A stretch of DNA of 45,280 nucleotides from a bacterium (GCA_030693325.1 JAUYAV010000022.1:1-45280); one strand, 5' to 3'. Positions 9,351-34,871 are shown, counted from the stretch's first letter. Made by a program: numbers and translations. Notes: generated by a model from the sequence alone, not told the origin.

Positions 9351-9355
9351 TACTT

Positions 9356-10429: not shown

Positions 10430-10430
10430 G

Positions 10431-10471: not shown

Positions 10472-10480
10472 AAAAATTTT

Positions 10481-11686: not shown

Positions 11687-11702
11687 AATAATAAGGTCGA
11701 AA

Positions 11703-11757
11703 AAATAAATAAATAAATAAATGACACTCAAAACTCAAAACTCAAAACTCAAAACTA
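11703..11757. repeat. AAAT microsatellite and ACTCAAA tandem repeat at the pilin start
   Basis: About four AAAT units run into the ATG, then ACTCAAA units encode the leader peptide (TQNSKLKT). The same ACTCAAA tandem recurs inside gatA (32593-32625), where it encodes KTQNSKLKT. Confidence 0.75.
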
Positions 11758-12200
11758 ATAAAGGGTTTACCTTGATTGAGCTTTTAATCGTGGTCGCTAT
11801 CATTGGGTTGTTGGCTTCAGTGGTTCTGGTCGGTTTGGGGGGATTCCGGGCTCGGGGACGGGATGCTCGTCGGATTGCCGATATCAGACAATCCCAGAAC
11901 GCTTTAGAACTTTTTTACACCAAAAACAACAAATATCCCACGGTTTCCGGAGTAAATAGCTGGGACAGCTTAAAAACTTCTTTGATTGGCGGCGGCATTG
12001 GGGTTTCTACTATTCCGAATGACCCCTTGCATGCTTCTGACAGCAATAAAACATACGAATATGGCGTTTCAAGCGACCTCCAAAATTATGTTTTAAAATC
12101 GTCTTTGGAAGATTCCAATAATCCCGCTCTTACTGATGACGTTGACGGCACAATTTACGGACTAAGCTGTGACGACCCGGCCTATTGCGTTCAGTTTTAA
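11721..12200 (+). CDS. Type IV pilin (major-type prepilin)
   Basis: This 159-residue prepilin has a basic leader ending NKG, followed by the class III signal FTLIELLIVVAIIGLLASVVLVGLG, with Glu at +5 and a single hydrophobic helix. The globular part contains RDARRIADIRQSQNALELFYTKNNKYP, the usual pseudopilin/pilin alpha-1 continuation, and two Cys near the C-terminus. The leader is encoded by a tandem repeat (ACTCAAA units, 11724-11756) and the start lies in an AAAT microsatellite. Processing by the downstream PilD is expected. Confidence 0.9.
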   Translation: MTLKTQNSKLKTNKGFTLIELLIVVAIIGLLASVVLVGLGGFRARGRDARRIADIRQSQNALELFYTKNNKYPTVSGVNSWDSLKTSLIGGGIGVSTIPNDPLHASDSNKTYEYGVSSDLQNYVLKSSLEDSNNPALTDDVDGTIYGLSCDDPAYCVQF

Positions 12201-12210
12201 AGATAAAAGT

Positions 12211-12260
12211 TGTAATTGGGTAATTTAGTAATTACTGCAATTACCTAATTACTTAATTAC
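12211..12260. repeat. GTAATTAC repeat array before pilD
   Basis: Degenerate units (GTAATTGG, GTAATTTA, GTAATTACTGCAATTACC, TAATTACTTAATTAC) fill the gap and abut the pilD ATG at 12262. Confidence 0.65.
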
Positions 12261-14767: not shown

Positions 14768-14793
14768 AATTGACAAAATAATTAATTTGTTAG

Positions 14794-14809
14794 ATGCTAA
14801 TATTAGCAT
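14794..14809 (+). promoter_or_regulatory. 16-bp perfect palindrome overlapping an extended -10
   Basis: ATGCTAATATTAGCAT is perfectly palindromic and contains TG-C-TAATAT (14795-14803), a good extended -10. A TTGACA occurs at 14770 but at too wide a spacing for this -10. A repressor or self-regulating protein binding here would block the promoter of the FGE-like gene. Confidence 0.5.
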
Positions 14810-14855
14810 AAAGTATTTGATTGAACATTAAAAATTTAAAAAGGGGGAGGAGAAA

Positions 14856-15542
14856 ATGGACGAAAAACTTTTAAAGAATCTTGGTTTTGTTTTTACGGAA
14901 GATGGCCGAGTAAGATTGGGAACTGAAAAACCCCTGCCTTGCAGATTAGAGGGTTATAGGAAGAATGAAACCCCTATAAGAGAATTTGATATAGAACCTT
15001 TTTGGATATCTAAATTTTGTGCAACCAATTTAGAATATGAGAAATATGACCCTAAGCATCGCCGGCCAATAACATCACGCAACGACAAACATCCCGTAAC
15101 CGAAATAACGTATATGAACGCTATTTCTTATGCGGGTTGGCTTTCCAAACAAACTGGCGTAAATTTTGATCTTCCAACAGAACAGCAATGGGTTTTTGCT
15201 GCCGCGCCTTTTGGTTATGAATATCCTTGGGGTATGAGCTACTCAAGAAATCAAGCGCATGTTTTTACCCCGGATTTAGAGGGAACATTAGAAGCTGATG
15301 ACGCACGTTTTGGGACCAATTGGCTTGGCCTTTACCACATTGGAGGTAATATCCAGGAATTTGTTTTAGGCACTGCTTATGCCCCAGGCACCAATGGGGC
15401 TCTCGTTGATGGTATGTATTGTATTATCAAAGGAGGCGATTGGTCTCATTGTCCCCGTTCCGCCGGTATCCACAGAAGGGGCATTGTTGACGTAGCTGGA
15501 AGAGGACCGACTCTTGGTTTTAGATTGGTAGCAAATCTATAA
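14856..15542 (+). CDS. FGE/SUMF1-type formylglycine-generating-enzyme-like domain protein
   Basis: This 228-residue protein consists of one FGE-sulfatase (SUMF1) domain: FWISKFCATNLEYEKY, PVTEITYMNAISYAGWLSKQTG, FDLPTEQQWVFAAAPFGYEYPWG, GLYHIGGNIQEFV, and GGDWSHCPRSAGIHRRG followed by LGFRLV. True FGEs oxidise a sulfatase Cys using two active-site cysteines. Only one comparable Cys (WSHC) is visible here and there is no sulfatase nearby, so a binding or regulatory role is more likely. It has a strong GGGGGAGG Shine-Dalgarno and its own terminator. No signal peptide. Confidence 0.82.
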   Translation: MDEKLLKNLGFVFTEDGRVRLGTEKPLPCRLEGYRKNETPIREFDIEPFWISKFCATNLEYEKYDPKHRRPITSRNDKHPVTEITYMNAISYAGWLSKQTGVNFDLPTEQQWVFAAAPFGYEYPWGMSYSRNQAHVFTPDLEGTLEADDARFGTNWLGLYHIGGNIQEFVLGTAYAPGTNGALVDGMYCIIKGGDWSHCPRSAGIHRRGIVDVAGRGPTLGFRLVANL

Positions 15543-15550
15543 ACTTATAT

Positions 15551-15592
15551 CCTCGCCGCGCTAAATATAATATTTAGACGGCGAGGTTTTTT
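15551..15592. terminator. Rho-independent terminator after the FGE-like gene
   Basis: CCTCGCCG (15551-15558) and CGGCGAGG (15579-15586) enclose a second stem CTAAATA/TATTTAG and are followed by six T. The lpxC stop codon on the opposite strand lies inside the hairpin. Confidence 0.85.
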
Positions 15593-16419
15593 AATTCATC
15601 TATAATTTTATAAGTGAATTTGTGGCCGGGCTTATAGAGAAAAATTTCCCCTTTGATTCTTTTTCTCAAAAGACATATGTCGCCTAAAAAATCAATGATT
15701 TTATGTCTAGCCGGTTCATCCTCGGTTGCCAAATTCGTAATGAATTTATATTTATCGTAAACGATAAGAGGAGAATTAGCGGGATTATCCGGAAGAAGTG
15801 GATAAAGTTTTCTTATCCTTTCCCATTTGTCGCCGGCATCATCAAGCGGCGTTCTGATAAAACTTCTGGCCCAAGATATTTTTTCTAAAAAATCGTCCAG
15901 TTCAAAAATGAATTCAAAAGAAGAAGAGCTCAAAGGCTCGGGAAATTCCACCATAGCTTTTATCGAAAAAGCATTTTTCTTAGACGGAGTAAATATGGCG
16001 TACCTGCTATCATCGGGAACAGAAATTTTTATTTCTTTGTCTATAATTAAATATTCTCTTGATTCGCCCAAAGAAACCAAACCGGCTTTTTTTATTTCTT
16101 GCGCATATTCTTTGCAAGAAAAGTCAAAAAAAGGAATACCATCTTCGTTAATTTCTATGATTAGATTATCTATCCCCATTCCCCAGATAGCTCCCAAAAG
16201 ATGCTCAACGCTTTTTATAATTTTCCCATTTTTTATTAAATTAGTGGTATGAGACGAACCCCTGTCAACAAACTGAATGTCGGCTGGAATAAATTCGTCA
16301 GCAATTTTAAAAACTATACCTTCGTTTCCTTTCGCGGGCAACAATTTTGCCGAACATTTTTTGTTTGATATTATAGACAAACCTTCAAAATTTAACGGCT
16401 TTGCTATAGTTTTTTGCAT
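15574..16419 (-). CDS. lpxC: LpxC-like UDP-3-O-acyl-N-acetylglucosamine deacetylase
   Basis: This 281-residue protein aligns over its length with LpxC, the zinc deacetylase committing UDP-GlcNAc to lipid A. The active-site pattern is intact: SVEHLLGA gives Glu72 and zinc ligand His73, RHKIIDFLGD gives zinc ligands His239 and Asp243, and GHKFTYK gives His266, the general acid. The shared segments GIDNLIIEIN and ISWARSFI are also clear. It lies 13 nt downstream of the phosphodiester-glycosidase-like gene. No other lpx gene is in the window, so the substrate may be another acylated or acetylated sugar nucleotide. Confidence 0.88.
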   Translation of the reverse strand: MQKTIAKPLNFEGLSIISNKKCSAKLLPAKGNEGIVFKIADEFIPADIQFVDRGSSHTTNLIKNGKIIKSVEHLLGAIWGMGIDNLIIEINEDGIPFFDFSCKEYAQEIKKAGLVSLGESREYLIIDKEIKISVPDDSRYAIFTPSKKNAFSIKAMVEFPEPLSSSSFEFIFELDDFLEKISWARSFIRTPLDDAGDKWERIRKLYPLLPDNPANSPLIVYDKYKFITNLATEDEPARHKIIDFLGDICLLRKRIKGEIFLYKPGHKFTYKIIDELKNLAV

Positions 16420-16432
16420 ATTAATACTTATT

Positions 16433-17671
16433 TTAATATTTATTTTTCGGAAAAGCTATTACGCAAGAAGTTATTGGTCTTCCATTTTCTCCATTCCATT
16501 CCGGTTTTAGCTTTTTTAAATTTAAATAGTGCAGGTTGCCAAAAACACGCAACTTCCCTTTTTGCTTTAGACATATTTTTGAGGATTGTCCGCCATCACA
16601 ATTAATAGCCCATTTCACATTGTGATTTTTACGGTAAATATAATTAGCCAAATCGGGTATGCTTATTCCTTGCTGTCCTATAATTCGAGGCCTGGCATCT
16701 ATAAGTAAAAAGTGAATAAGGTTGCCGGTTTTAAAAATACAAGATCTCGCTTTTTGCTGTTCAATATTGGAATAATACGGATTGTTATCATCTGCTCTTC
16801 TGGTTATAACTATTTTTTCTGTCATTATGTTTTGATATAATTTTTTTATAGATTTTGGTATTTGTATCCCTGAAGTTACCGCGAAATCGGTATTTTTCGG
16901 CGATAATCCATCTACAATCCAATCGGTAATTCTTAATCCAACTTTTAATTTTTTTACCATTTCATTTGGCGTTTGCAGAATAAAAATTCCATCAAATAAT
17001 TTGGTTTTTTGATTTGTTATCTTTTTTATGTAAAGAATTCTATCTTTCTTTAAAAAAGCTATATCTATAATTATATTTTTATACCCTTTTGACAGTTTTA
17101 TCCATTCTTGTTTTTTGTTTGGAATAATGCCCAAATCGCTTTTTATAAGGCCTTGATTTGATATTCCATAGACAACGCTCATTTTTTTATCGCTAAACGC
17201 TTGTTTTTCATGACTACCGATCCATAAAATTTTTATGTTCCCAAAATAAAGACAACCGCTTGCTTTTATTTTTCGCGGTTCTATTTTTCCATCTTTTTCT
17301 ATAATAGCTGTTTTAGTATAAGTGGGTAGATTAAGCAAACAATTGTTTTCTATGTGAAGATTATAGGTAAAATCTATTGGCGATTTTTCTGCTTTAAAAT
17401 CAACATTATAGGTAAATCCGGCGTTAATCAAAATTCCGTTATTTATCTTTTTTAAATAATCTTTCGGATATTTTGGGCTAAGAGTGCTTAATATATGTAA
17501 TTTAATTTTATTTTCTTCAAGCTCAACTTCGTAGAAATTTATAAAAGTTTTAATTCTCGATGGATTTGATTCTATATAAAAACTGCCTTTGTTCAAAAAG
17601 GCGCCGTCAAAAATTTTTATACGACAACTTTTTTCTTTTCTAAGTTTCGCAAATAGAAGATGTTTGTTCAA
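16433..17671 (-). CDS. Phosphodiester-glycosidase (NAGPA-like) domain protein
   Basis: This ~412-residue protein has a C-terminal NAGPA/phosphodiester glycosidase domain: the ARSCIFKTGNLIHFLLID strand, the AINCDGGQSSKICL motif (family: NLDGGGSS) and the closing RPITSCVIAFP. The N-terminal ~250 residues contain a long beta-rich part (LINAGFTYN, GISNQGLIKSDLGI) that also fits the fold. Family members act on sugar-phosphate diesters in exopolysaccharides or glycans. There is no clear signal peptide. The only available start is a TTG, so the N-terminus is uncertain. It forms a two-gene unit with lpxC. Confidence 0.7.
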   Translation of the reverse strand: MNKHLLFAKLRKEKSCRIKIFDGAFLNKGSFYIESNPSRIKTFINFYEVELEENKIKLHILSTLSPKYPKDYLKKINNGILINAGFTYNVDFKAEKSPIDFTYNLHIENNCLLNLPTYTKTAIIEKDGKIEPRKIKASGCLYFGNIKILWIGSHEKQAFSDKKMSVVYGISNQGLIKSDLGIIPNKKQEWIKLSKGYKNIIIDIAFLKKDRILYIKKITNQKTKLFDGIFILQTPNEMVKKLKVGLRITDWIVDGLSPKNTDFAVTSGIQIPKSIKKLYQNIMTEKIVITRRADDNNPYYSNIEQQKARSCIFKTGNLIHFLLIDARPRIIGQQGISIPDLANYIYRKNHNVKWAINCDGGQSSKICLKQKGKLRVFGNLHYLNLKKLKPEWNGENGRPITSCVIAFPKNKY

Positions 17672-17794
17672 CGCTATTTTTTAGATAAAAATATTTTATT
17701 TATTGGATATCTTAACGTAAAAAGCGCTTCCTTTGTTTTCGCCTTTACTTTCAGCCTAGATTATTTTACCGAGTTTTGAGAAAAAACACAAAAT

Positions 17795-17823
17795 TTGACA
17801 GATTTCTAATTTTAAGATATACT
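17795..17823 (+). promoter_or_regulatory. Consensus sigma-70 promoter for the PEGA-type lipoprotein
   Basis: TTGACA (17795-17800), exactly 17 nt, then TATACT (17818-17823). Start near 17830 gives a ~48-nt leader with a GGAGG site. This is unlike the -10-only promoters of most genes here. Confidence 0.75.
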
Positions 17824-17877
17824 TTATATCAGGAAAATCAGTATAGTTGTTTAACAATTTTTAAAATGGAGGTAAGG

Positions 17878-18315
17878 ATGAAAAAGACAGGAAAGTTGTT
17901 ATGCCTGATTATGGCGTTATGTTTTGTGTTTGTAGCGTCAGGTTGCGCCACCATAACCAGAGGCCGGTATCAAAAAATTCCCGTGGTTTCTAACCCTAGC
18001 GGAGCGAAAGTCATTGTTAACGGCAAAGAACTGACGTCTCCCTGTACGTTGGTATTGAAAAGAAAGCAACGTCTGTATAAAGTCAGTATAAAAAAAGAGG
18101 GTTACGAGCCGGTAGAAATAGTATTGCAAAGAACAGTGCCTGGTTGGGGTGTGTTCTGGGGATGGGGGAATATTGAGCCCGTTGGTATTATAGTTGACTG
18201 GTGCACAGGCGCTGCTTACAAACTTATGCCCACAGAATTGAAAGTAAATTTAGTTCAGAAGAAATTAGGTTTAAACGACTTAAAAGACAAAAACATCTCG
18301 ATTGTCTCAAATTAG
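17878..18315 (+). CDS. PEGA-domain lipoprotein
   Basis: ATG 17878 is chosen because GGAGG (17868-17872) lies 5 nt before it. A longer frame from 17776 would contain the promoter. The 145-residue product has a lipoprotein signal peptide with lipobox VASG and Cys23, then a PEGA domain (IPVVSNPSGAKVIVNGKEL ... YKVSIKKEGYEPVEI) and a Gly/Trp-rich segment (VPGWGVFWGWG). PEGA domains are surface beta domains. Its style (consensus promoter, strong Shine-Dalgarno, terminator) suggests acquisition from another bacterial group. Confidence 0.85.
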   Translation: MKKTGKLLCLIMALCFVFVASGCATITRGRYQKIPVVSNPSGAKVIVNGKELTSPCTLVLKRKQRLYKVSIKKEGYEPVEIVLQRTVPGWGVFWGWGNIEPVGIIVDWCTGAAYKLMPTELKVNLVQKKLGLNDLKDKNISIVSN

Positions 18316-18366
18316 CCGGCGGATAGAGTTAATAATTAACTGAGATTAATGACTCTGTCCATTTAA

Positions 18367-18395
18367 GGCCCCGGATATCACATCGGGGCCTTTTT
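18367..18395 (+). terminator. Rho-independent terminator after the PEGA lipoprotein
   Basis: GGCCCCG (18367-18373) and CGGGGCC (18384-18390) form a perfect stem followed by TTTTT. Confidence 0.9.
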
Positions 18396-18448
18396 ATTTT
18401 CCTATGAAAGTTATCCACAGTTTAGTTATGTTTACCATTTCGCCATTA

Positions 18449-18457
18449 TGATATAAT
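18449..18457 (+). promoter_or_regulatory. Extended -10 (TGATATAAT), leaderless start
   Basis: TG-A-TATAAT ends 8 nt before the ATG at 18466, so transcription should start at or next to the start codon. Confidence 0.65.
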
Positions 18458-18465
18458 TAAATCAA

Positions 18466-19299
18466 ATGAATAATTCTAATTTAATTAAATTAATAACCAT
18501 ACTATTGGTAGTTACTGTTTTTACCTTTCATGTCAATGAAGCGAAGGCTTGGGTATTTGTTGTTATCTGGATTATTAGGGCCGTTACTGGTGAAGTTGGG
18601 ACGGGTAATGCCAACTTTTGGGGTATACTTACCGCCATCCTTACTGGGGGAATTGCGCCTCTTGTTGGCGAAATGATGTGTTTAAGCGGCCAAGATAGTA
18701 TATGGTTTACCGATTGCGCAGAAAACGCCTATGTAGGTCCTACTGCAGATTCATCATCGGGACAGCCAGTATTAAATAATCAATCTTTCACCACCACCTG
18801 TAATTCTGCGAGTTTGACTTATGACGTTTCTAACGCTTATCAGTACGGCATTTATCGGGCTACCGCCGGGGCGACAGAAAGTACTTTAGTAAATTCCGGT
18901 AGCGCTCAAGGTATTTCTAATATTACCTATACTGACTCCAATCTTACTCCACAAACTAGTTATGAATATATTCTGGATTTAACTGATAGCGCTGGCACGG
19001 AATTCCAATATCCGCCTCAAATTGCCTATACTCAATGCCTGCCCGAGTGCACTTTCAGCGCCGACAAAAGCCAAGTGGTTTTCCCGGAGACGGCTACTCT
19101 TTCATGGGCTTGCAGCTATGCCGATTCCTGTAGTATTTCACCCACTGTCGGCTCGGTCAATGCCCAATCGGGCACAGCCACGGTTTCTCCCGCTTCAATA
19201 ACCGATTATATCCTGACTTGTCAGAATGGCGATGGTTCGATTTCTTTCTCTTCTTCAATTGACGTCGTCAATCCCAGTATAAAAGAAGTAAAACCTTAA
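18466..19299 (+). CDS. Secreted Ig/fibronectin-like surface protein of unknown function
   Basis: This 277-residue protein has an N-terminal signal peptide or anchor (~1-28), a second hydrophobic stretch (~32-70) and two extracellular beta domains. One, at ~110-195, is fibronectin-III-like (YQYGIYRATAGATES ... LTPQTSYEYILDLTDSAG). The other, at ~200-275, is Ig-like with paired Cys (CTFSADKSQ ... ATLSWACSYADSCSI ... DYILTCQNG). Multiple Cys suggest disulfides outside the cell. A role in adhesion or surface coating is plausible but only inferred. It has a leaderless-type promoter. Confidence 0.65.
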   Translation: MNNSNLIKLITILLVVTVFTFHVNEAKAWVFVVIWIIRAVTGEVGTGNANFWGILTAILTGGIAPLVGEMMCLSGQDSIWFTDCAENAYVGPTADSSSGQPVLNNQSFTTTCNSASLTYDVSNAYQYGIYRATAGATESTLVNSGSAQGISNITYTDSNLTPQTSYEYILDLTDSAGTEFQYPPQIAYTQCLPECTFSADKSQVVFPETATLSWACSYADSCSISPTVGSVNAQSGTATVSPASITDYILTCQNGDGSISFSSSIDVVNPSIKEVKP

Positions 19300-19311
19300 T
19301 AATAAAAGTCG

Positions 19312-19357
19312 AATTATTAAGTCATCAGTTATTAGTTATAAGTCATTAGTTAAATTA
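19312..19357. repeat. AGTCATTAGTTA-type low-complexity repeat
   Basis: Degenerate tandem units (AAGTCATCAGTTATTAGTTATAAGTCATTAGTTA) fill the gap before the next gene, the same kind of microsatellite leader seen before two pilin genes. Confidence 0.55.
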
Positions 19358-19358
19358 T

Positions 19359-19610
19359 ATGGACAGATTCAAACTTTATAAAAAATGGTTTTGGATTGGA
19401 TTAGCCGTCGGATTTATAAACCCCATTTTGGGCTTGGTTTATGGCATCGCTCTTGTCGTTGAAAAAGACCACCGCAAAGAGGGAATAATAATTATAATTT
19501 GGACTATTGTCTGGACGATAAGCACTTACTATGGCATCATTTGGCTGGCAAATAACGGTTATCTGCCGACTTTCCAGTTAAAATCTCCCGGCACATTGCT
19601 TCTCCCCTAA
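19359..19610 (+). CDS. Small two-helix membrane protein of unknown function
   Basis: This 83-residue protein has hydrophobic helices at ~10-32 (WFWIGLAVGFINPILGLVYGIAL) and ~42-65 (IIIIIWTIVWTISTYYGIIWL) separated by a charged loop. It has no recognisable domain. It is preceded by a repeat-filled gap and followed by another small secreted protein on the same strand. Confidence 0.55.
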   Translation: MDRFKLYKKWFWIGLAVGFINPILGLVYGIALVVEKDHRKEGIIIIIWTIVWTISTYYGIIWLANNGYLPTFQLKSPGTLLLP

Positions 19611-19656
19611 AAGTAATAAATAAAATTTAACAAGGTCGAATATTATAAACCTAAAA

Positions 19657-19872
19657 ATGTTAAAATCTATGAAAAATAAAAAAATTCTGAAATCATTGTT
19701 ATTTTTAGGAATTGGATTATTAGTTTCCGTATCTTTTGTGGCTTTGCAAAAAGTGAAGGCCGTGATAGTCAAAGGATTGGAAGACGGTAAAAGTATCAGA
19801 GTTAGTAGTGATAATTCTTCTTGCGAAATCCAGAAAGATTCCCATTTTAGCGGTTGCAACACCGTGATATAA
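19657..19872 (+). CDS. Small secreted or membrane-anchored protein of unknown function
   Basis: This 71-residue protein has a basic N-terminus, a hydrophobic segment (~13-33) that could be a signal peptide or anchor, and a short polar tail with two Cys (SSCEIQ ... SGCNTV). A later Met (MKNKKILKS) is an alternative start. Its stop codon overlaps the -10 box of the next gene. Function unknown. Confidence 0.5.
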   Translation: MLKSMKNKKILKSLLFLGIGLLVSVSFVALQKVKAVIVKGLEDGKSIRVSSDNSSCEIQKDSHFSGCNTVI

Positions 19873-19873
19873 T
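19865..19873 (+). promoter_or_regulatory. Extended -10 (TGATATAAT), leaderless start for the PaaK-like gene
   Basis: TG-A-TATAAT overlaps the upstream stop codon and ends 6 nt before the ATG at 19880. Confidence 0.65.
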
Positions 19874-19879
19874 TCAGGG

Positions 19880-21136
19880 ATGGATTATAATCCTTTATCC
19901 CTAAAAGAAGTATTAAGTTTTGTCTGGGATAATCCCTATTCGGATTTTTACCGGAAAAAATACGAAGCCGCCGGTTTCAAAAAGAAGGATGTCTTGAATC
20001 CAAAAAATTTCAAACATCTTCCTTTTCTGACCCGGCAGGAATTAGAAGCCGTACCGCCGCAGGAACGGCTTTTTGTTAATGCCGATGAAGTCCAATTTGT
20101 GGCTTATACTTCCGGTACCAGCAGTCAAAACCCGCTGATTACTTATTTCGCTAAAGTGGATAATTATTATTTTGACCCCACTCTTGGCTTAGGGGTTAAA
20201 AGATTATTAATCACTTATCCGCCTTTAAACAAAAATTTCGGCCACACTTTTGTCCAGCAATGCGTTCAAGCTAAAAATAAATCAGTTCCTATTTTTGCCG
20301 ATTATCAGAATTTAGCCAATAGCGCCGTTATCGCCGCGAAACTTAAAGCCGATGCTATTTATGCCACCCCGACTATCGCCTCAATGCTGTTGGAATTTTT
20401 ACAGAAATATTATGACCCGAAAGAAATTAAATTATTGGCGTTAAGTTCGGAAACTCTGACTTCAATACGGAGGAAGCAGCTTGAATCGGCTTACCCCAAT
20501 GCTCAAATCGCCAATTTATACGCTTCATCGGAAATCGGCCAGTTTATTTTATATCCCTGTAAGAAAATTATCACTTCAAAAAAAGATTTATTTCATGTTC
20601 TTCGGCCGCCTATGCTGGAGACAGAAATTATTAACGGAGAGTTGATTATTACTTATGCCAATAATAAAGCCCTGCCGCTGATCCGTTACCAGACAGGCGA
20701 TTTTTTTGAAATTGTCAGTGATAATTGCGAGTGCGGTCTTAAAGGTCCTGTTTTGGCCTGGCTAGGCAGAGAAGATGTTGATAAAATCAGGGTAAGCGGG
20801 GTTGAAATAAAGGTCAATGACGTTGAAAAAGTATTTGCACCTTTAGTTGGTATTATCGGCAATAATTATCAGATCCATTTTTATGAGAATCAAAAAGGGG
20901 CAGTTGAAATAATTATTGAAGTCAAAAAATCTTCAATCAGCGGGTTGGTTAACCCTGATTCAATTGCTGTAAAAATAATTGACCATTTAATGAATAATTG
21001 GCAACTGTCGCCAACCGCCTACTTGAAAGAAGCTGTCAATAAAGGATTATTCTTGGTTCCTAAAATAAAATTCGTGGAAGAATTATCTTTTCTAACGTCT
21101 AAAACCCGAAGATTAATTAATCATATGAAAGAATGA
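19880..21136 (+). CDS. PaaK/CapK-like adenylate-forming enzyme
   Basis: This 418-residue member of the ANL (AMP-binding) superfamily is closest in layout to phenylacetate-CoA ligase PaaK. It has the P-loop YTSGTSSQNP (~74-83, Ser/Thr/Gly-rich), an aromatic core motif LYASSEIGQF (A4-type), IRYQTGDFFEI (A7-type Asp) and GREDVDKIRVSGVEI (A8 hinge). Such enzymes activate aryl or acyl acids as AMP esters and often form CoA thioesters. The substrate is not predictable from sequence. It overlaps the Lnt-like gene by 4 nt and faces the operon encoding an aromatic ammonia-lyase, which makes an aryl acid substrate attractive. Confidence 0.82.
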   Translation: MDYNPLSLKEVLSFVWDNPYSDFYRKKYEAAGFKKKDVLNPKNFKHLPFLTRQELEAVPPQERLFVNADEVQFVAYTSGTSSQNPLITYFAKVDNYYFDPTLGLGVKRLLITYPPLNKNFGHTFVQQCVQAKNKSVPIFADYQNLANSAVIAAKLKADAIYATPTIASMLLEFLQKYYDPKEIKLLALSSETLTSIRRKQLESAYPNAQIANLYASSEIGQFILYPCKKIITSKKDLFHVLRPPMLETEIINGELIITYANNKALPLIRYQTGDFFEIVSDNCECGLKGPVLAWLGREDVDKIRVSGVEIKVNDVEKVFAPLVGIIGNNYQIHFYENQKGAVEIIIEVKKSSISGLVNPDSIAVKIIDHLMNNWQLSPTAYLKEAVNKGLFLVPKIKFVEELSFLTSKTRRLINHMKE

Positions 21137-22725
21137 AATCCAGGCTAAATTTATTTTTTGAAAAATATTGGTTTTTTTTGCCGTTTTTTTCGGCGCTTTT
21201 GCTGATTCTTTCTTTTCATCCTTTTGATTTCTGGTTTTTAGGTTTTGTGGCTCTTGTGCCTCTTTTTTATTTCCTTAATTTTTCCGAGAAAATTTCGTTA
21301 TCCAAAATTTTTTGGGGCGGCTTTATTGTTGGAGTGATTTTCTCTTCGTTTCTTTCTTTTTTTACGCTTTTTCACTTCCATTGGCTGCCGGAAACATATC
21401 TTTTCGTCTGGTTGGTGCGTTTATCGCCCCTCCTGATTTCTCTTATTAGCGGTGTTATAGTTGGCTTGGTGCTTTTGGGATATAAAAGGCTGGCTTCAAA
21501 TAAAATAATTGATATTTTTGTCCTTGCTTCGCTCTCGGTTCTTATTGAGATAATCCATTATAAAATATTCTCGGGGTTTGATAATGGTTTATTGGCTTAC
21601 ACCGCTCATAATCTAACTTATTTAATTAGATTATCTTCTCTTGTGGGTATTTTTGGGATATCTTTTATTATCACCCTCGTTAACGTTTTTATCGTTTTTT
21701 TCATCTTGCGGCCTGATTATAGAAAGAAAATCGCTTATCTATTTTTCGCCGGCTTAACGATTTTCTTTTTGATAAGTTTTTCAAATAATCATTATTTAGA
21801 CGGAGGCAGTAATGATTATCATTCGGCGAAATTCGCCATTATCCAAAACTCCGACAAAAAAAATATTTTTGGTTTTTTCTCTTCCAAAAACAATCATTTC
21901 TATTTCCCCGGCGCGGAGCGTTTGATAGCCCAAGTGATGCCTTCGGAACCGAATTTCTTAATTTATCCGTTCAGTCCTTTTAACGGCCATTTGGCGATTG
22001 ATAAGACAGAAATTAAAGACGAAGGCCTTAAAAAAACCATTGCCGGGGAAGCCAAAGATTTTGGAGAATGGGTGGCTAAACAAATAGATTCTAAAACGAT
22101 TTTTGTTAATTGGGTTAACGTGGTAAGAGATGACAATCTTTATCCAGAAATAATTTTTTTAAAAGGCAAAGATTTTATCGCTAATTATCAAAAAAGAGAA
22201 CTTTTTCCCGCGATGGATTATACGCCGGAAGTTTTTAAAAAAATCGGTCTTTTTGTCACCTCGGTTGACGCCTCGCCGGCTTCTACCGGAAATAGCCCCG
22301 TTGTTGAGATAGGAGATGTGAAATTCGGACCCTTGGTTTGTTCTGAAATTTTCAAATCGGAACTTGGGCGCAAATCTGCTTTTCAATCGAACATTTTTCT
22401 TTCTATTGGTTCGGAGGCGATGTTTGTCGGCAAGACCCCCGGCGAATGGAGTTTGATTGTTTCCCAATTTATAGCGGCGGCGAATAACAGGCCATTAGTA
22501 AGAGCGAATATTTTTGGGGCATCGGCTTTTATCAATGAAAAAGGCAAGGTGATAGAAAAGATGGATTTTGAGAAAACCGGAGTTTTGATTAAAGATATGA
22601 AATATAAAAAATCTCCGAAAAACACTTTATACAGTTATTTCGGAGATTGGCCGTTTATTCTTTTGATTTTATTATTTTTGTCGTCAATAACGATTCCTAA
22701 ACTATTTAAGCTTAAGAAACGATAA
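21133..22725 (+). CDS. Apolipoprotein N-acyltransferase (Lnt)-like protein lacking the catalytic Glu
   Basis: This 530-residue protein has a hydrophobic N-terminal half (~1-220, six or more helices), a nitrilase-fold domain and a C-terminal helix, the Lnt architecture. The nitrilase Cys is present (LVCSEIF, Cys403), as is the Lys (NYQKREL, Lys354) and the RPLVRANIFGASAFI segment. Where Lnt has WPE (Glu267 in E. coli) this protein reads YPFS, so the catalytic Glu is Phe280. It may be inactive as an N-acyltransferase, use another acid, or have a changed reaction. It is translationally coupled to the PaaK-like gene. Confidence 0.8.
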   Translation: MKSRLNLFFEKYWFFLPFFSALLLILSFHPFDFWFLGFVALVPLFYFLNFSEKISLSKIFWGGFIVGVIFSSFLSFFTLFHFHWLPETYLFVWLVRLSPLLISLISGVIVGLVLLGYKRLASNKIIDIFVLASLSVLIEIIHYKIFSGFDNGLLAYTAHNLTYLIRLSSLVGIFGISFIITLVNVFIVFFILRPDYRKKIAYLFFAGLTIFFLISFSNNHYLDGGSNDYHSAKFAIIQNSDKKNIFGFFSSKNNHFYFPGAERLIAQVMPSEPNFLIYPFSPFNGHLAIDKTEIKDEGLKKTIAGEAKDFGEWVAKQIDSKTIFVNWVNVVRDDNLYPEIIFLKGKDFIANYQKRELFPAMDYTPEVFKKIGLFVTSVDASPASTGNSPVVEIGDVKFGPLVCSEIFKSELGRKSAFQSNIFLSIGSEAMFVGKTPGEWSLIVSQFIAAANNRPLVRANIFGASAFINEKGKVIEKMDFEKTGVLIKDMKYKKSPKNTLYSYFGDWPFILLILLFLSSITIPKLFKLKKR

Positions 22726-22734
22726 TCAACTCCC

Positions 22735-23778
22735 TTAATTATCGTTAATGAGCCCCTGGGAATACCCCAGGAGTAATTTCTTGTATTGAGGAGGTATTTT
22801 TACAGAGGCAAGGCGGTTCTGCGCTATGTTTACGCAAGTTGATATTTCTTTTTTTGCGTATGACAGGGATCCGGTTTCTGATATAAGCCGTCGCATTTTT
22901 AATAAATCCCTTTTATTCACCTTATTTTTGGAAAATATTTTTTTTATAGTCAGTTTCCCTTTTCGGTCTGCGCAGTGATAGGCGCGCCAGATAAGGATTG
23001 TTTTTTTAGCTTCTTGTAAATCCGAAAGAGTTGATTTGCCGATTTTTTCCTCTTCTCCGAATAACCCGATAATATCATCTTTTATCTGAAATGCCCTCCC
23101 CAAATATAGGCCATATTCAAAAAGTTTTTTGATGTCATTTGTTTTTGCCCCGGCCAGTGTTGCTCCTATTGCGAGGGGAGAAGCGAAGGTATAATTACCG
23201 GTTTTCAAATCGTATATTCTGTAGATATCCGGCTTGGTTATTTTGTCTATATTTTTTATTCCCGCCAACAGCTCAATAAATTCGCCGCCGGTGGTGCGCA
23301 GAGCGGTCTCAATAAATATTTTGAGAGCCTCTTCTTTGCGTTTCCTGTCCTCTTTAACGGCTAAAAATGATTGTATCGCCATGGCGTATAGAGTGTCCCC
23401 AATGACAATGGCTAAATCCTGACCGTTGAATTTGATATTTTTGTATTTTTTAAGATAATTATTCAGCATTGTATGCATGGCTGGTTTGCCTCGGCGCAGG
23501 TCGGATTTATCTATAATATCGTCGTGGACAAGCAAGAAGTCATGCAGGAGTTCTATGGATATGGCGCTGCGGTATAATCCGGGCGCGGTTTTTTTAGAAA
23601 AACTTAGATAGCCTATCAGGAAAAAAATGGGGCGGATGCGCTTGCCTTTTCTGGATATAAAGTCTTTGATATGCCTGGATAGAACCGGAGAGATTTTTTT
23701 AAGCGAGTAAAGCTTATCTACACTGCGAACATAATCGGCAAGTTCAACTTTAATTCTGCTTTTTAACTTCAGAAACAT
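22735..23778 (-). CDS. Polyprenyl (geranylgeranyl-type) diphosphate synthase
   Basis: This 347-residue trans-prenyltransferase (IspA/IdsA family) condenses IPP with allylic diphosphates. The first Asp-rich motif is DDIIDKSDLRRG, the second QIKDDIIGLFG (a DDxxG variant seen in GGPP synthases of archaea and actinobacteria), and the IPP-binding KGKRIRP is near residue 45. Product length cannot be set from sequence. It is the last gene of a five-gene operon, 4 nt after the UbiA gene. Confidence 0.92.
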   Translation of the reverse strand: MFLKLKSRIKVELADYVRSVDKLYSLKKISPVLSRHIKDFISRKGKRIRPIFFLIGYLSFSKKTAPGLYRSAISIELLHDFLLVHDDIIDKSDLRRGKPAMHTMLNNYLKKYKNIKFNGQDLAIVIGDTLYAMAIQSFLAVKEDRKRKEEALKIFIETALRTTGGEFIELLAGIKNIDKITKPDIYRIYDLKTGNYTFASPLAIGATLAGAKTNDIKKLFEYGLYLGRAFQIKDDIIGLFGEEEKIGKSTLSDLQEAKKTILIWRAYHCADRKGKLTIKKIFSKNKVNKRDLLKMRRLISETGSLSYAKKEISTCVNIAQNRLASVKIPPQYKKLLLGYSQGLINDN

Positions 23779-23782
23779 AAAC

Positions 23783-24703
23783 CTATATTAGATTATTAAA
23801 TATTTTGGCGATAAGCGGTATTATAAAATATGAAGTTACTACAAACCCCCAAATATTGTAAATCACCATCGTTTTCAAATAAAATTTCAGGAGAAAATCA
23901 TGGTCTTTAATAAAGAGACTGAAAATAAAAATACTTAATGGCACCACTACTACTAAGCCGTAAATTGGCCTTGCGCCGAAAGACAGGGTAAATCCCACAA
24001 TGATCATAGCCGCTACGCATACCAGCAACGATTTTTGTTTTCCGAGAATGGTTGCGGAAGTTTTTTCACCGGACGCTCTATCGCTTTCAATATCAACAAT
24101 TTTTGCATAAAATTCTGTAGCCCCGAAATAAAGAAAGGCAATAATTATCCACAGAAAATTAGGCCAGTTATCCGCTACAAAGATGTAGCCGCTTAATAAC
24201 GGTACGACATACACCACGGCTCCCAACAGAGTATCCAGCAGCAGTAGATTTTTTACACGAAACGCATAGGCAGAGTATAAAAAAGTGCCTATAAACAAGA
24301 AGGCGACCATAGCTGAAATTTTCAGATTAAAAGACACTATACTTATTACAATAAAGAAGATGGCAGTGGCTGTCAGACCGATAAAAACCGGCCATTTATC
24401 ATAATCCTCGGCGATCATCCAAGATTTCTTTTTTCTCGGATTCTCGGCATCGGCCTTGCGATCATAGTAACTATTTACGCTGTTCGCGGCGATATTCAAT
24501 GCTATCAGAAACCAAAAAAAATATAGAACGAACCCGGCTATAAAATGGCTAGTGTAAAATTGAGACGGATTTTCAATATTTGATAACGCGAGAGCGGTTC
24601 CCAAAATAAATACTCCGCCCGTATAAAGCCAGATACTCGGACGGCTTAGGATGATTACTCGTTTTGCCGCAGAATATATCTTTTTCAACATAATATAGAG
24701 CAT
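23783..24703 (-). CDS. UbiA-family membrane prenyltransferase
   Basis: This 306-residue protein has about nine membrane helices. The first Asp-rich motif is NSYYDRKAD (family NDxxDxxxD, with Ser for the first Asp) and the second is DIESDRASGEKT (DxxxDxxxG). The second motif resembles lycopene elongases and related archaeal/actinobacterial prenyltransferases more than UbiA of ubiquinone synthesis, but aromatic acceptors remain possible. It needs a prenyl donor, which the adjacent synthase would supply. It lies 22 nt after the GT2 gene. Confidence 0.85.
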   Translation of the reverse strand: MLYIMLKKIYSAAKRVIILSRPSIWLYTGGVFILGTALALSNIENPSQFYTSHFIAGFVLYFFWFLIALNIAANSVNSYYDRKADAENPRKKKSWMIAEDYDKWPVFIGLTATAIFFIVISIVSFNLKISAMVAFLFIGTFLYSAYAFRVKNLLLLDTLLGAVVYVVPLLSGYIFVADNWPNFLWIIIAFLYFGATEFYAKIVDIESDRASGEKTSATILGKQKSLLVCVAAMIIVGFTLSFGARPIYGLVVVVPLSIFIFSLFIKDHDFLLKFYLKTMVIYNIWGFVVTSYFIIPLIAKIFNNLI

Positions 24704-24725
24704 TGTATAGCTTGGTTTATTTTTG

Positions 24726-25877
24726 TTAAGTTAACTTAACAACCCGATCCTTCCAAGTAATTGATTTTTTGAAAAAAGAACAAAAGCCAGCGATTATAAA
24801 TACAATTATAACATAAAAACCCAAAATTGGAGAGAAAACGGCAATATAAACCGGCTGGCGGTTTAAAAGCAGGTAAAGCCCGAAAATAAAAACAAATATG
24901 GCATAGCTTGAAAAACCGCCTTCCGGAAAACCAGTGAGAATTTTTATTACTCCGTCAATGCTGAAAGCCACCAGAATGAAAGTTGTGGCAAAAGAAGAAA
25001 AATTTACAAGACGGAAATCCATACTTCTTATAATGCCTTTCAATGATTCCTTGAAATTATCGTATAAAAATACCGATATACCAGAACTATTCTCATCAAC
25101 TACTGCAACTTTTTTCTTTAAATTAATCGCTATTTTTATGAAAGCCTGGATTTCAGGAACATAATTTTTTACCTTTTCATACCCGCCGATTTCATCATAA
25201 GTGTTTTTATAAAGTAAAATATTTTCTCCCCAGGAGACAGGGGATTGTTCCACCTCCAACAGCGAGCTAAACCAAAAAGAAAAACGGAAAATAAAATTTA
25301 AAAATAAGAAAGGCCAGTCCCGCCATTTCCTAATAATTAAGCGGGAAAAACGGAATAATATTTCCGCTTCGGACGCTAAAAGGTGATTCACGGAATTTTT
25401 AAGACTTTCCGGTTTAAGTCTTACATCGGCATCAACTATTAACATCAGCTTTCCCTTGGTCAGTTTTACTGCTTCATTAACGGCCCACGGTTTGCCAAGC
25501 CATTCTTTCGGCGGAGTTGGGACATCAAAAATTTTTATGGAGATTTTAGAAGAAAATTTCTTAATGGTTTCCAGGACAAAGTTTTTGGTGTTATCCGTTG
25601 AAGAATCATTGGCAATGATGATTTCAAGATTTTCGTAATTTAAAGCCGCCAAGGAATTTATGCAAGAAACTACATTTTTTTCTTCGTTCCGCATAGGAAC
25701 AATGATTGAGACAAATGGGTATTCCTTGACCGGAGTTTTTGGTTTTTTTAATTTACGTGAGGACCTTAGAAAGAATGAAATAAACAATAAGCTTTCAAAA
25801 ATTATTAAAAAAACATTACTATAACTGATAAAAGAAAATATTATAATTAATAAAGGAGTGGCCCAAAAAATAAACAT
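24726..25877 (-). CDS. GT2 glycosyltransferase of the carotenoid/hopanoid-associated type
   Basis: This 383-residue membrane glycosyltransferase has an N-terminal helix pair, then a GT-A domain with SIIVPMRNEEKNV, ANDSSTDNT, PPKEWLGKPWA and the DxD motif IVDADVRL, and three C-terminal helices ending TWKDRVVK. The EWLGKPWA and terminal TWK.R motifs are shared by CruC/CrtQ carotenoid glycosyltransferases and HpnB-like proteins. It probably glycosylates a membrane isoprenoid. It starts 3 nt after the ammonia-lyase gene. Confidence 0.85.
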   Translation of the reverse strand: MFIFWATPLLIIIFSFISYSNVFLIIFESLLFISFFLRSSRKLKKPKTPVKEYPFVSIIVPMRNEEKNVVSCINSLAALNYENLEIIIANDSSTDNTKNFVLETIKKFSSKISIKIFDVPTPPKEWLGKPWAVNEAVKLTKGKLMLIVDADVRLKPESLKNSVNHLLASEAEILFRFSRLIIRKWRDWPFLFLNFIFRFSFWFSSLLEVEQSPVSWGENILLYKNTYDEIGGYEKVKNYVPEIQAFIKIAINLKKKVAVVDENSSGISVFLYDNFKESLKGIIRSMDFRLVNFSSFATTFILVAFSIDGVIKILTGFPEGGFSSYAIFVFIFGLYLLLNRQPVYIAVFSPILGFYVIIVFIIAGFCSFFKKSITWKDRVVKLT

Positions 25878-25880
25878 AAT

Positions 25881-27413
25881 TTAAAAAAACATTGATTTCG
25901 TTAAATTCCCGCTTTTTATCAAAGAAATAATTTTTTCTATATCGGCCGATAGCGGCTTGTCTTTATGTAGAAAAGGAACGACTTTCCGGATTTTCTGATA
26001 TATTTTTTTAGATTCCTTGCTTGCTTTTTTGATTCCCCGCAATTCAATTGCCTGCATTCCGGCTAAAAGTAAAATCGCCGTTAATTTTTCAAGGTTTTCA
26101 TAAGATTCTTTGAGATCAAAAGCCGCGTGAGTGCCCAAACTATTGACATCCTGATTATCTCCTTCGGTGGGGAGCATGACTGCCTGGTTTGATAAAGACA
26201 ATTTTCGGTTTTGGACGGCAAGCGAAGCCGCCAGAACCTGAATCGGCTTGAAGCCGCTGTACTCATCGGGATTTTCAATCAGATTCGCCGGCAATCCTTT
26301 GTTTTTTCGCGGATGAATCAAATTGGCGATAATCGCGTGGATCCAGGATGATGCCTGGGCGATGTCAATTTTTAAAATATCACAGGCCTCGGTGATATAA
26401 TAGCCCATAAAATTGGCGTTATTATAAATCTTTGCGGGGTTTGTTCTTACAATAGGGTTGTCATTGACCGAATTCATTTCTTCTTCTATCCAATTAATCG
26501 CTTGTTTGATGTTTTCGTAAAACGGTCCGAATCCCTGCGGAATGGAACGAAGAGAATAATAATCCTGAAGATCTTTTTTATTGAGCAATTTGCTTCCTTG
26601 CCAAAAATTAACGAAAAATTCATCAACTATAATTTGGCCGGAATGTTTTTTGGCTTTATGAACGAACGGATCATATGCGTCAGTAATAACCGAAAGCGAC
26701 TCTAAAGCCACGGCTAAAGCTGAAAGTAATACCGGAAATAATTTAGCAATATCAGAAACGGTCAGGGCGGCAATCGCCGTCATAAAAGAAGTGCCGTTGA
26801 TCAACCCAAGTCCTTCTTTAGCTTCCAACTGAAGCGGTTTTAAGCCGAATTTTTTCATTGAAATTTTCGCTTCTATTTTTTTCCCATCCAAAAAGCATAG
26901 CCCGCTTCCGGTTAAAGCCGAGGCTATCGCCGCTAAAGGAATAAGATCGCCGCTGGCTCCGATTGAACCGTAACGCCTGACGACAGGAACGATATTTTTA
27001 TTCAGAAAATCAACAAGTGATTTTATAACTATGGGCCGCACGCCCGACATTCCCTTACTTAACATTTGAGCTCTCAATAACATTGCCGACCGGACAATAT
27101 CTGCCGGTGTTTCTTCGCCTAGACCGCAGTTGTGCGATTGAATAAGATTATTCTGCCGTTCTTTCAAGGAGTTAAGAAAAGTTTTTGTCTCTCGGCCGAT
27201 ATTTTTTTCAACCCGGTGGAGATCGCCGCCGAATTGGGTGGTAATGCCATAAATTGGGATGCGCTTTTTTAAAAAATTTTCCAAAACAGCCCTGTTTTTA
27301 GCCACGATTTTATAAACGTCAGGCTCAACGGAAACCAGGGACGATTTTCTTGCCACTGCCTCAATGTCTTTTAATTTTAACCACTTATCGGCCCCGATAA
27401 ATATTTTTTTCAT
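25881..27413 (-). CDS. MIO-type aromatic amino acid ammonia-lyase (PAL/TAL/HAL family)
   Basis: This 510-residue enzyme carries the autocatalytic MIO triad Ala153-Ser154-Gly155 in GSIGASGDLIPLA and the catalytic Tyr55 in YGITTQFG. The substrate-selectivity pair is Ser93-His94 (LIQSHNCGLG), shared by HAL and several bacterial enzymes. The later motif is GDNQDVNSLGTHAA (Asn420-Gln421), which is the PAL/TAL form rather than the QEDHVSM form of histidine ammonia-lyase. No other hut gene is nearby. The likely product is cinnamate or coumarate (or a beta-amino acid if it is a mutase). It overlaps the upstream gene by 4 nt. Confidence 0.9.
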   Translation of the reverse strand: MKKIFIGADKWLKLKDIEAVARKSSLVSVEPDVYKIVAKNRAVLENFLKKRIPIYGITTQFGGDLHRVEKNIGRETKTFLNSLKERQNNLIQSHNCGLGEETPADIVRSAMLLRAQMLSKGMSGVRPIVIKSLVDFLNKNIVPVVRRYGSIGASGDLIPLAAIASALTGSGLCFLDGKKIEAKISMKKFGLKPLQLEAKEGLGLINGTSFMTAIAALTVSDIAKLFPVLLSALAVALESLSVITDAYDPFVHKAKKHSGQIIVDEFFVNFWQGSKLLNKKDLQDYYSLRSIPQGFGPFYENIKQAINWIEEEMNSVNDNPIVRTNPAKIYNNANFMGYYITEACDILKIDIAQASSWIHAIIANLIHPRKNKGLPANLIENPDEYSGFKPIQVLAASLAVQNRKLSLSNQAVMLPTEGDNQDVNSLGTHAAFDLKESYENLEKLTAILLLAGMQAIELRGIKKASKESKKIYQKIRKVVPFLHKDKPLSADIEKIISLIKSGNLTKSMFF

Positions 27414-28168
27414 AAATTCTTTAAAAGATTATTAAGTTCGGTGAATAATTTATTTGATTGGCTGCCGGTATCATTTATTTTTTGCATAGATACCTGAAGT
27501 TGTTGGGATAATTGGTCGATTTCATTATTATCTTGAGAATTTAAGATTTTTCCCAAAATATCAGAAAGCTCTAAAGCGGATTGAGCAAAAGTTTTTCCAG
27601 CTTCAATTGTCTCGTCGGTTTTTAATTTTATCGCGGCGTCGGTGGTTTGGCTGTTGGCCAAAGTCCAATTATCAAGTGAATTTTTGAGATTAGAGGCGTC
27701 AGTTGCAAGAACGGCGTTTTGCGAAACACCCAGGGAAATTAAAGATAATAAGGCATTTGTATCTCCATTTTGGTATTTTTCCTGAAGCGCGGCTAATGTT
27801 TTTTGGATTTCACTCATGGCCGCGGGAATTTTGTTCAGATTATTGATTGAATCCTGATAAAAATTTATGTAGTTTTGGCTGATAACCGCTGGCTTGACGG
27901 TGACGGATTGCGGGGGGATTGGAGACGTTTTTTGCGGTGTCGTTGGTTGCTTGGAAGGAGACGCTATTTCTGCCGGTTGGATTTGTGAAAAGGAGGTATC
28001 AATTCCCCCGGAAGGAATTTGGTAATTAAGCGTTTCCAAAGTCGGATTTGGCTTATTGGTTTTGCTGCCGATTTCTTTTGGTTGATTATTATGATAGAGA
28101 AAATAACCCAATCCCGCGAAAAGTCCGATTAAAACGACTATGGCTAGAGAAATTAAAATAATTTTCAT
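27410..28168 (-). CDS. Membrane-anchored helical protein of unknown function
   Basis: This 252-residue protein has one N-terminal transmembrane helix (~4-24), a Pro/Ser/Thr-rich linker (~30-90) and a helical extracellular domain (~92-252, coiled-coil rich: SQQLQVSMQKINDTGSQSNKLFTELNNLL). It has no catalytic motif. It is the first gene of the operon encoding the ammonia-lyase, GT2, UbiA and prenyl synthase, with a 4-nt overlap, so it may be a scaffold or surface partner of that pathway. I do not recognise a family. Confidence 0.6.
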   Translation of the reverse strand: MKIILISLAIVVLIGLFAGLGYFLYHNNQPKEIGSKTNKPNPTLETLNYQIPSGGIDTSFSQIQPAEIASPSKQPTTPQKTSPIPPQSVTVKPAVISQNYINFYQDSINNLNKIPAAMSEIQKTLAALQEKYQNGDTNALLSLISLGVSQNAVLATDASNLKNSLDNWTLANSQTTDAAIKLKTDETIEAGKTFAQSALELSDILGKILNSQDNNEIDQLSQQLQVSMQKINDTGSQSNKLFTELNNLLKNL

Positions 28169-28196
28169 AATTGATTCAAATTTATAGTATACTTTT

Positions 28197-28350
28197 AATT
28201 ACGAAACTCCAATTTTACCGATAACAGGCAAAAAGATTTTTCTGAAATCTAAACGGAAGCGCAGCCCAGCACATAACGCATTATGTGCTGGGCGTGAGCG
28301 GATTGAAGAAAATTTTTTCGCCTGTTACTATACAGTTTAGTTTCGTAATT
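28197..28350. mobile_element. 154-nt hairpin element with perfect 12-bp terminal inverted repeats (MITE-like)
   Basis: AATTACGAAACT (28197-28208) and AGTTTCGTAATT (28339-28350) are perfect inverted ends. TAACAGGC (28222-28229) pairs with GCCTGTTA (28320-28327), and GCCCAGCACATAA (28264-28276) pairs perfectly with TTATGTGCTGGGC (28281-28293) around loop CGCA. It has no coding capacity. No clear target-site duplication is seen. It lies between two divergent gene starts. It could alternatively be a structured RNA. Confidence 0.7.
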
Positions 28351-28377
28351 CACAGTAGTAGACTACTATAGTATAAT
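28349..28377 (+). promoter_or_regulatory. Promoter for the PilX-like gene at the element edge
   Basis: TTCACA (28349-28354), 17 nt, TATAAT (28372-28377), and the ATG follows 7 nt later (leaderless). The -35 overlaps the last bases of the hairpin element. The spacer holds TAGTAG-A-CTACTA, a short palindrome. Confidence 0.7.
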
Positions 28378-28384
28378 ATCAATT

Positions 28385-34202: not shown

Positions 34203-34871
34203 TTAAGCTAATTTGAAATATTTTTCAAATATCTTCTTTTTGCGCGAAAGATATAAGTTGTTTTCAACATCCTTATACAAAAATTTATATAAGGATAAAC
34301 TATCGTTTACAGAAAAACACAATCTATATCCTTTGTTATAGTAAAAAGTTCCGCCAGAAATATCGCTGAGTTTTTTAAGTTTGGCATGCAATGCTTTAAG
34401 AAAATTTTTGCTACCGGACGTAAAACCAGATAAAATCGTGGTTGTATTTTTATTATTTCTATCCGCCCTGATGTATTTAGCAATAGTCGCATTGCCGTCT
34501 CCGTCAAAATATCCTCTTGTAAAATGAGAAAAATATTTATCAGGAACAAAAGGTAATTTTATAGTTTTGCTTTTGTTTGGCGTTAAACCAATTTGCGATA
34601 AATCATTAAATATTGATTTGCTTCCGATTTGTAGCCGATAAATAGTATTCCATTTGACGTTTCTTTTTCTTGCGGTAATCTTATGATTTGAGCCAAGTAA
34701 TCTTTTAATCTTTCCCAATATATCTTTATCGGTAATTTGAAATTCAATAAAATGCGCGCCTCTTTTATTTTTTATCATATTTCCATCCGCGGCAAAAAAT
34801 CCTAAAACATAAGCCATTTCCGGCGTCCAATTTTTAAAGAAATCTTCGTTTTTTGTTTTTAAAATCGGCAT
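34203..34871 (-). CDS. LAGLIDADG homing endonuclease
   Basis: This 222-residue protein has two LAGLIDADG motifs: VLGFFAADGN (~22-31, Asp29) and TRGYFDGDGN (~117-126), each closing a half-domain of the monomeric homing endonuclease fold. The segment FIEFQITDKDILGKIKRLLGSNHKI is typical of the first repeat. It is free-standing: no intron or intein borders are visible. The start codon is 9 nt after tRNA-Met and the stop 21 nt before tRNA-Asp, all on one strand, so it is probably transcribed with the tRNAs. Its target may be a tRNA locus. Confidence 0.9.
   Translation of the reverse strand: MPILKTKNEDFFKNWTPEMAYVLGFFAADGNMIKNKRGAHFIEFQITDKDILGKIKRLLGSNHKITARKRNVKWNTIYRLQIGSKSIFNDLSQIGLTPNKSKTIKLPFVPDKYFSHFTRGYFDGDGNATIAKYIRADRNNKNTTTILSGFTSGSKNFLKALHAKLKKLSDISGGTFYYNKGYRLCFSVNDSLSLYKFLYKDVENNLYLSRKKKIFEKYFKLA

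Follow-up and report, generated by a model that had tools for sequence, protein, structure and literature searches.

The window analyzed here, a 45,280-nucleotide contig of a bacterial genome (GCA_030693325.1, JAUYAV010000022.1:1-45280), contains an accessory island in which seven genes encode, among other products, an aromatic amino acid ammonia-lyase, a PaaK-like adenylate-forming enzyme, a UbiA prenyltransferase and an Lnt-like membrane protein. We tentatively propose, with a probability of roughly 0.45, that the genes of the island serve specifically to make an aromatic membrane lipid or glycolipid that contains an isoprenoid. The contig is number 22 of 25 in a 661-kb genome that is 95.7% complete, and the named relatives of this source genome are Patescibacteria (Wolfebacteria, Paceibacterota and others), a group described as reliant on partners and without most biosynthetic pathways. 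No paper on such a cluster in Patescibacteria was found in the open-access literature. The island and the seven genes are located as follows.

14768..28384, no strand: accessory island, flanked on one side by the last pseudopilin gene (end at 14767) and on the other by the pilX-like gene (from 28385) and ligA
19880..21136, plus strand: PaaK-like adenylate-forming enzyme of 418 amino acids, recognized by PaaK models and PDB PaaK ligases
21133..22725, plus strand: Lnt-like integral membrane protein that includes a nitrilase-fold domain and retains two residues of the triad, Lys and Cys, with Phe280 of a YPF motif at the Glu position
22735..23778, minus strand: polyprenyl diphosphate synthase, first Asp-rich motif DDIID
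23783..24703, minus strand: prenyltransferase of the UbiA superfamily, with the motifs NSYYDRKAD and DIESD; PRK12875 is the closest named family
24726..25877, minus strand: family 2 glycosyltransferase (GT2; Glycos_transf_2) of the HpnB/CruG type with transmembrane segments
25881..27413, minus strand: 4-methylideneimidazole-5-one (MIO) aromatic amino acid ammonia-lyase (or aminomutase) with ASG, the SH selectivity pair and NQDVNSLG
27410..28168, minus strand: membrane-anchored helical protein of 252 amino acids, first gene of the minus-strand operon

An earlier note on this DNA had described the seven open reading frames, and its coordinates, strands, overlaps and motifs all proved correct. 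The ligase and Lnt-like genes overlap by 4 nt, the convergent stops lie 9 nt apart, and the spacings within the minus-strand operon, in order from the convergent stops, are 4, 22, 3 and −4 nt, in agreement with the gaps of 3–22 nt, 4-nt overlaps and 9 nt between stops given before. Families were assigned by Pfam and NCBIfam profiles against curated cut-offs. The 252-residue protein has a single, N-terminal transmembrane segment, no Pfam match and no known family. The gene set is confirmed as real rather than a chance assembly, because the family matches are whole-length or nearly so and because a genome from another family has some of these genes at the same locus.

The seven genes, which the note had treated as the unit, are part of a larger insertion with further cargo (including LpxC-like, NAGPA-like, PEGA-domain and fibronectin type III (FN3)/immunoglobulin (Ig)-like proteins). 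This 13.6-kb stretch interrupts a type IV pilus/ligA block conserved in relatives, in which the pseudopilin, pilX-like and ligA names were assigned by reading the proteins and not by profiles. Two genomes (G002 and G147) have contiguous flanks, the pilX-like gene and ligA coming immediately after the last pseudopilin gene. At the same site, a genome of the same genus (G001) has other DNA with no match to the island genes, G117 has yet another cargo, and G108, from another family of the same order, has a partial, rearranged gene set. The GC content is 0.371 in the island vs. 0.415 and 0.398 in its flanks. Thus, 14768–28384 is an accessory island. Misassembly was ruled out by the syntenic flanks and by a second genome in which some of the genes occupy this position. 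No clear direct repeats were found when the island ends were scanned for repeats.

Passenger genes that share no function and are retained only for a time by one lineage would fit the lack of a match in the same-genus genome, the other cargo in G117 and the lower GC content. Against this, every frame is intact, the operon spacing is tight, and a partial set occupies the same site in another family; we consider such passengers quite improbable.

Enzymes of the seven-gene set

The lyase matches the Lyase_aromatic profile (PF00221) over all 466 of 466 positions (457 bits), and its GASGD sequence holds the Ala-Ser-Gly MIO triad. This triad and the NQDVNSLG motif typical of phenylalanine ammonia-lyases are both present, as had been read earlier. 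The best NCBIfam scores come from histidine ammonia-lyase (HAL) models, at 399 bits and, for HutH (TIGR01225), 390 bits, which would favor HutH-type catabolism of histidine or aromatic amino acids with unrelated neighbors, but both scores are under the curated cut-offs of 524 and 539. In a phylogenetic tree, window-type lyases from Patescibacteria, Legionella, other gammaproteobacteria and myxobacteria form one clade with 100/100 support, whereas the HutH-type lyases of the order, which carry NQEDHVSMG, cluster with the solved HAL 7tqr in a clade of their own. The HAL residue Glu414 binds imidazole; in an alignment with 7tqr and the HutH clade, its column holds Gln in the window lyase (NQDVN). 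Motif, cut-off and tree led us to reject histidine catabolism, and a HutH-type role is extremely improbable. By the earlier note, a placement within HutH with a hut pathway elsewhere would have refuted its reading; instead, the lyase lies in a separate clade, and the source genome has no hutH-type lyase and no other MIO lyase (absences across this genome were tested one family at a time).

These comparisons support a putative aryl-acid-type MIO enzyme acting on Phe or Tyr, and not HutH. The SH pair and NQDV are also found in the tyrosine aminomutase SgTAM, therefore tyrosine is a reasonable guess as substrate. The selectivity region matters, as the His89Phe switch in a Rhodobacter enzyme shows (PMC9002059). 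Within the window-type clade, the Patescibacteria members often adjoin a PaaK-like ligase, and the relatives in fluorescent Legionella, with the selectivity pair SL, adjoin large polyketide synthase (PKS) genes. Cinnamic acid is the starter unit of legioliulin (PMC5126622), and the location of the Legionella lyase is consistent with cinnamate supply for this compound. In the order, for which we compared 244 genomes including the source genome (243 others), MIO lyases are present in 11. In the tree, the G108 lyase does not join the window clade but sits on a long branch, so that the same ligase is accompanied there by a lyase of another lineage.

The adenylate-forming enzyme is weakly matched by Pfam (26 bits, cut-off 30) and clearly by PaaK models and PDB PaaK ligases (E = 4e-18), which bears out its earlier description as PaaK-like. 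Judged by these matches, it is likely an aryl-acid-CoA ligase or aryl-acid adenylase. It was detected at E ≤ 1e-30 in 4 of the 244 genomes of the order, and its homologues are 58% (G147), 51% (G108) and 29% (G078) identical. As a separate observation, distant PaaK-like homologues, up to three copies in one genome, lie at L080 (G323) and L081 (G434) near a related membrane-anchored protein of ~470–490 residues whose family was not recognized.

The Lnt-like protein comprises LNT_N and CN_hydrolase domains and scores 105 bits against TIGR00546 (cut-off 133). Lnt requires Glu267, Lys335 and Cys387, and Glu343 and Glu389 also matter (PMC5500890). The window protein retains K354 and C403, with Phe280 in place of the general-base Glu. 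The same pattern is seen in the proteins of G108 and G147: Lys, Cys and the CxE residue are kept, Asp stands for Glu343, and Phe (YPF) stands for the base Glu. Since the catalytic Glu is lost in all three homologues, they are probably not lipoprotein N-acyltransferases. The earlier name of Lnt-like acyltransferase thus stands in its first half only, and the protein may bind or move an acyl group. A structure prediction from three sequences gave a mean pLDDT (predicted local distance difference test) of 48, too low to interpret. No second Lnt-like protein was found in the source genome.

The polyprenyl synthase (polyprenyl_synt, 181 bits) had been called a geranylgeranyl diphosphate (GGPP)-type enzyme; the synthase assignment held, and the GGPP type stays a candidate, with no chain length assignable from sequence. 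The prenyltransferase belongs to the UbiA superfamily by its NxxxDxxxD and DxxxD motifs and by PF01040 (94 bits), as reported before. The source genome holds no second polyprenyl synthase and no other UbiA match, and 140 of the 150 genomes in a set of relatives have no polyprenyl synthase. The two genes are dedicated ones, because they are single-copy and rare among relatives. A housekeeping role of the synthase in supplying undecaprenyl precursors was discarded, as those 140 relatives do without any.

The nearest NCBIfam family of the UbiA protein is the lycopene-elongase-like PRK12875 (117 bits, cut-off 205), and a PDB sequence search gave no match. It belongs, distantly, to a group that also holds the UbiA of apparent carotenoid clusters found in this order (family f9), which scores 239 bits. 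The GT2, described earlier as CruC/HpnB-like, indeed matches Glycos_transf_2 and resembles HpnB (96 bits) and CruG (78 bits), both far under the curated cut-offs. These resemblances would suit carotenoid tailoring, in which UbiA (C50 elongase lineage) and GT2 modify a carotenoid from a host or neighbor with prenyl diphosphate from the synthase. However, no phytoene or squalene synthase (PF00494) was found in the 95.7%-complete source genome, a profile that gave matches in seven named genomes as positive control, and therefore de novo carotenoid synthesis is out; the "carotenoid-like" product suggested earlier is not supported. Moreover, the UbiA protein reaches about half of the family cut-off, and tailoring gives the lyase and ligase no role. 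We regard it as highly improbable. The f9 clusters themselves (L042, L044, L045 and L046) combine a polyprenyl synthase with CrtB-like and CrtI-like genes and a UbiA of PRK12875; their surroundings include photolyase-like and ABC transporter genes (CrtB, CrtI and photolyase were named by reading sequences).

Recurrence and the proposed route

At the island site of G108, a compact run of interleaved genes, mostly on one strand, encodes a lyase, an ICMT/PEMT-type methyltransferase, an Lnt-like protein, a nucleoside deoxyribosyltransferase-like protein, two UbiA proteins and the PaaK-like ligase. In G147, the ligase, the Lnt-like gene and an ICMT-like gene lie at another locus. A homologue of a further island gene adjoins the ligase and Lnt-like genes in all three genomes.

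18466..19299, plus strand: protein of 277 amino acids; hydrophobic segment at the N-terminus, two beta domains of FN3/Ig-like type predicted at the C-terminus

Its model is confident (pLDDT 80–96) across residues ~101–270, and Foldseek returned tandem FNIII/Ig domains (E = 1e-6) with low TM-scores; the C-terminal part is therefore predicted to form two FN3/Ig-like domains. The recurrent core is the ligase, the Lnt-like protein and this protein, with the lyase and UbiA as partners in two of the three genomes. Thus, the neighborhood is partially conserved in relatives: of the seven families whose co-occurrence the earlier note had suggested looking for, a partial set occupies the same site in G108, and the full set is seen nowhere else. 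Furthermore, two genomes have both the ligase and a non-HutH lyase (P = 0.003 among the 244, window included).

The enzyme classes are given by sequence; the substrates, the order of steps and the product are what we infer from them. By deamination, the lyase would form p-coumarate from Tyr or else cinnamate from Phe, and the PaaK-like enzyme would activate this acid as acyl-AMP or acyl-CoA. The synthase and UbiA would attach a polyprenyl chain to the aromatic ring or to another acceptor, the GT2 would add a sugar, and at the membrane the Lnt-like protein would transfer the aryl group, or another acyl group, to an acceptor that is either a lipid or a protein. In G108 and G147 the product is probably also methylated, given the methyltransferase. 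A phenolic-lipid operon includes SrsB, which is of the ICMT family (PMC6669644), and the ICMT/PEMT-type methyltransferases beside the Lnt-like genes of G108 and G147 therefore fit an aromatic lipid. A lyase of a different lineage beside the same ligase, as in G108, is what one would expect of a pathway that requires an aryl acid rather than one particular inherited gene.

Several findings weigh against this proposal. The GT2 and the polyprenyl synthase are in the window only, no second genome has the whole set, and a search of the 243 other genomes of the order gave no GT2 match at E ≤ 1e-25. Without the window, the co-occurrence of ligase and lyase reaches only P = 0.06–0.12. Acyl transfer by the Lnt-like protein is doubtful because its triad is incomplete, and the substrates of the ligase, UbiA and GT2 are not readable from their sequences. 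No lyase or UbiA match was found in G147; since the ligase/Lnt-like pair also occurs there without them, the seven genes may be two units.

The main rival takes up this last point: two unrelated modules at one insertion site. In this view, the ligase and Lnt-like protein (with methyltransferase and FN3/Ig-like protein) would attach a carboxylic acid of some kind to a lipid or protein of the envelope, and the product of the convergent synthase-UbiA-GT2-lyase operon would be something else. G147 has the former module alone, ligase homologues in G078, G323 and G434 occur without any of the partners, and the two sets are on opposite strands in the window. In G108, by contrast, lyase, Lnt-like, UbiA and ligase genes are interleaved. 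We regard two modules as possible, though not as the favored explanation. Compared with its first formulation, the prenyl-aryl glycolipid pathway is plausible and has gained support in three respects (the lyase, the exclusion of a carotenoid pathway, and isoprenoid genes that are dedicated), and it is weaker in two, conservation and the Lnt-like step.

Should the aromatic lipid route be correct, some Patescibacteria make their own specialized envelope chemistry, from an accessory island beside type IV pilus genes. It also raises the questions of what a Glu-less Lnt-like protein does alongside an adenylating enzyme, and what a carotenoid-elongase-type UbiA does in a cell without phytoene synthase. 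A bolder and unlikely version is that a coumaroyl or cinnamoyl group, activated by the PaaK-like ligase, would be moved by the Glu-less Lnt-like enzyme onto a prenylated, glycosylated lipid or surface protein and decorate the surface of an epibiont, as a new cluster class joining phenylpropanoid and isoprenoid chemistry.

Other cargo and neighborhoods

Besides the seven genes and the exported 277-residue protein, the island carries genes for FGE-sulfatase-domain, weak NAGPA-like and PEGA-domain proteins and the following.

15574-16419, minus strand: LpxC-like deacetylase (PF03331, 177 bits) with EH, HxxxD and GH motifs

This gene, odd for Patescibacteria, adjoins the weak NAGPA-like gene where the GC content is 0.32. 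At the right end of the island, between the 252-residue protein gene and the pilX-like gene, a long imperfect palindrome (28190-28357; hairpin z-score −9.4) has no Rfam match and could be an element like a miniature inverted-repeat transposable element. A AATTACGNAATT-type palindromic motif has 20 matches with at most one mismatch vs. 4.3 expected, at 9328-12258 of the window and elsewhere, and clusters in the intergenic gaps of the pilus operon. An open reading frame of 222 amino acids (34203-34871, minus strand) between tRNA-Asp and tRNA-Met is, by reading only, LAGLIDADG homing endonuclease-like.

Another neighborhood recurs in Patescibacteria, with a ThiF-like E1, an MIO lyase, a ~480-residue PaaK-like ligase, an Acg-type nitroreductase and a seven-transmembrane histidine kinase. 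It was observed at L006, L007, L021, L071 (G178) and L072 (G196), partly at L016, L020 and L023, and without the lyase at L099 (G032), often with response regulators and type IV pilus genes, and involves at least two separate lyase lineages. The ThiF-like protein and the nitroreductase correspond to the two halves of mycobacterial Rv1355c-type proteins. The arrangement may represent an aromatic signal plus its sensor. Chromophore supply like that of photoactive yellow protein, by lyase, ligase and kinase, was rejected: the kinases have no conserved Cys, and no kinase is beside the window lyase.

Comparison with known systems

At the level of single proteins, the ligase shares its fold and adenylation motifs with PaaK-type phenylacetate/aryl-CoA ligases, as profile and PDB matches indicate, but is distant, at 418 residues and far under the curated PaaK cut-offs. 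The Lnt-like protein has the membrane N-domain, nitrilase-like domain, catalytic Lys and Cys and CxE helix of Lnt; it differs in Phe for Glu267, in its score under the model cut-off and in having an adenylating enzyme as operon partner.

At the level of clusters, C50 carotenoid clusters (GGPPS, CrtB, CrtI, UbiA) have the broad UbiA family, a polyprenyl synthase and a CruG-like GT2 in common with the island, whereas the source genome is without phytoene synthase and has the lyase and ligase. Flexirubin and aryl polyene clusters share an ammonia-lyase, a PaaK/FlxY-like ligase and a glycosyltransferase. The island differs in its UbiA and polyprenyl synthase, and its lyase and ligase are far under the FlxA and FlxY cut-offs. 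No ketosynthase, as the earlier note had also said, and no dedicated acyl carrier protein were found among the window genes Pfam-profiled in and around the island. In the legioliulin cluster of Legionella, a trans-acyltransferase PKS system with a cinnamic acid starter, the lyase is of the same clade as that of the window, ~51% identical, and beside large PKS genes. Unlike that cluster, the island is without a PKS, its lyase has SH for SL, and it combines the lyase with UbiA, polyprenyl synthase, GT2 and Lnt-like proteins.

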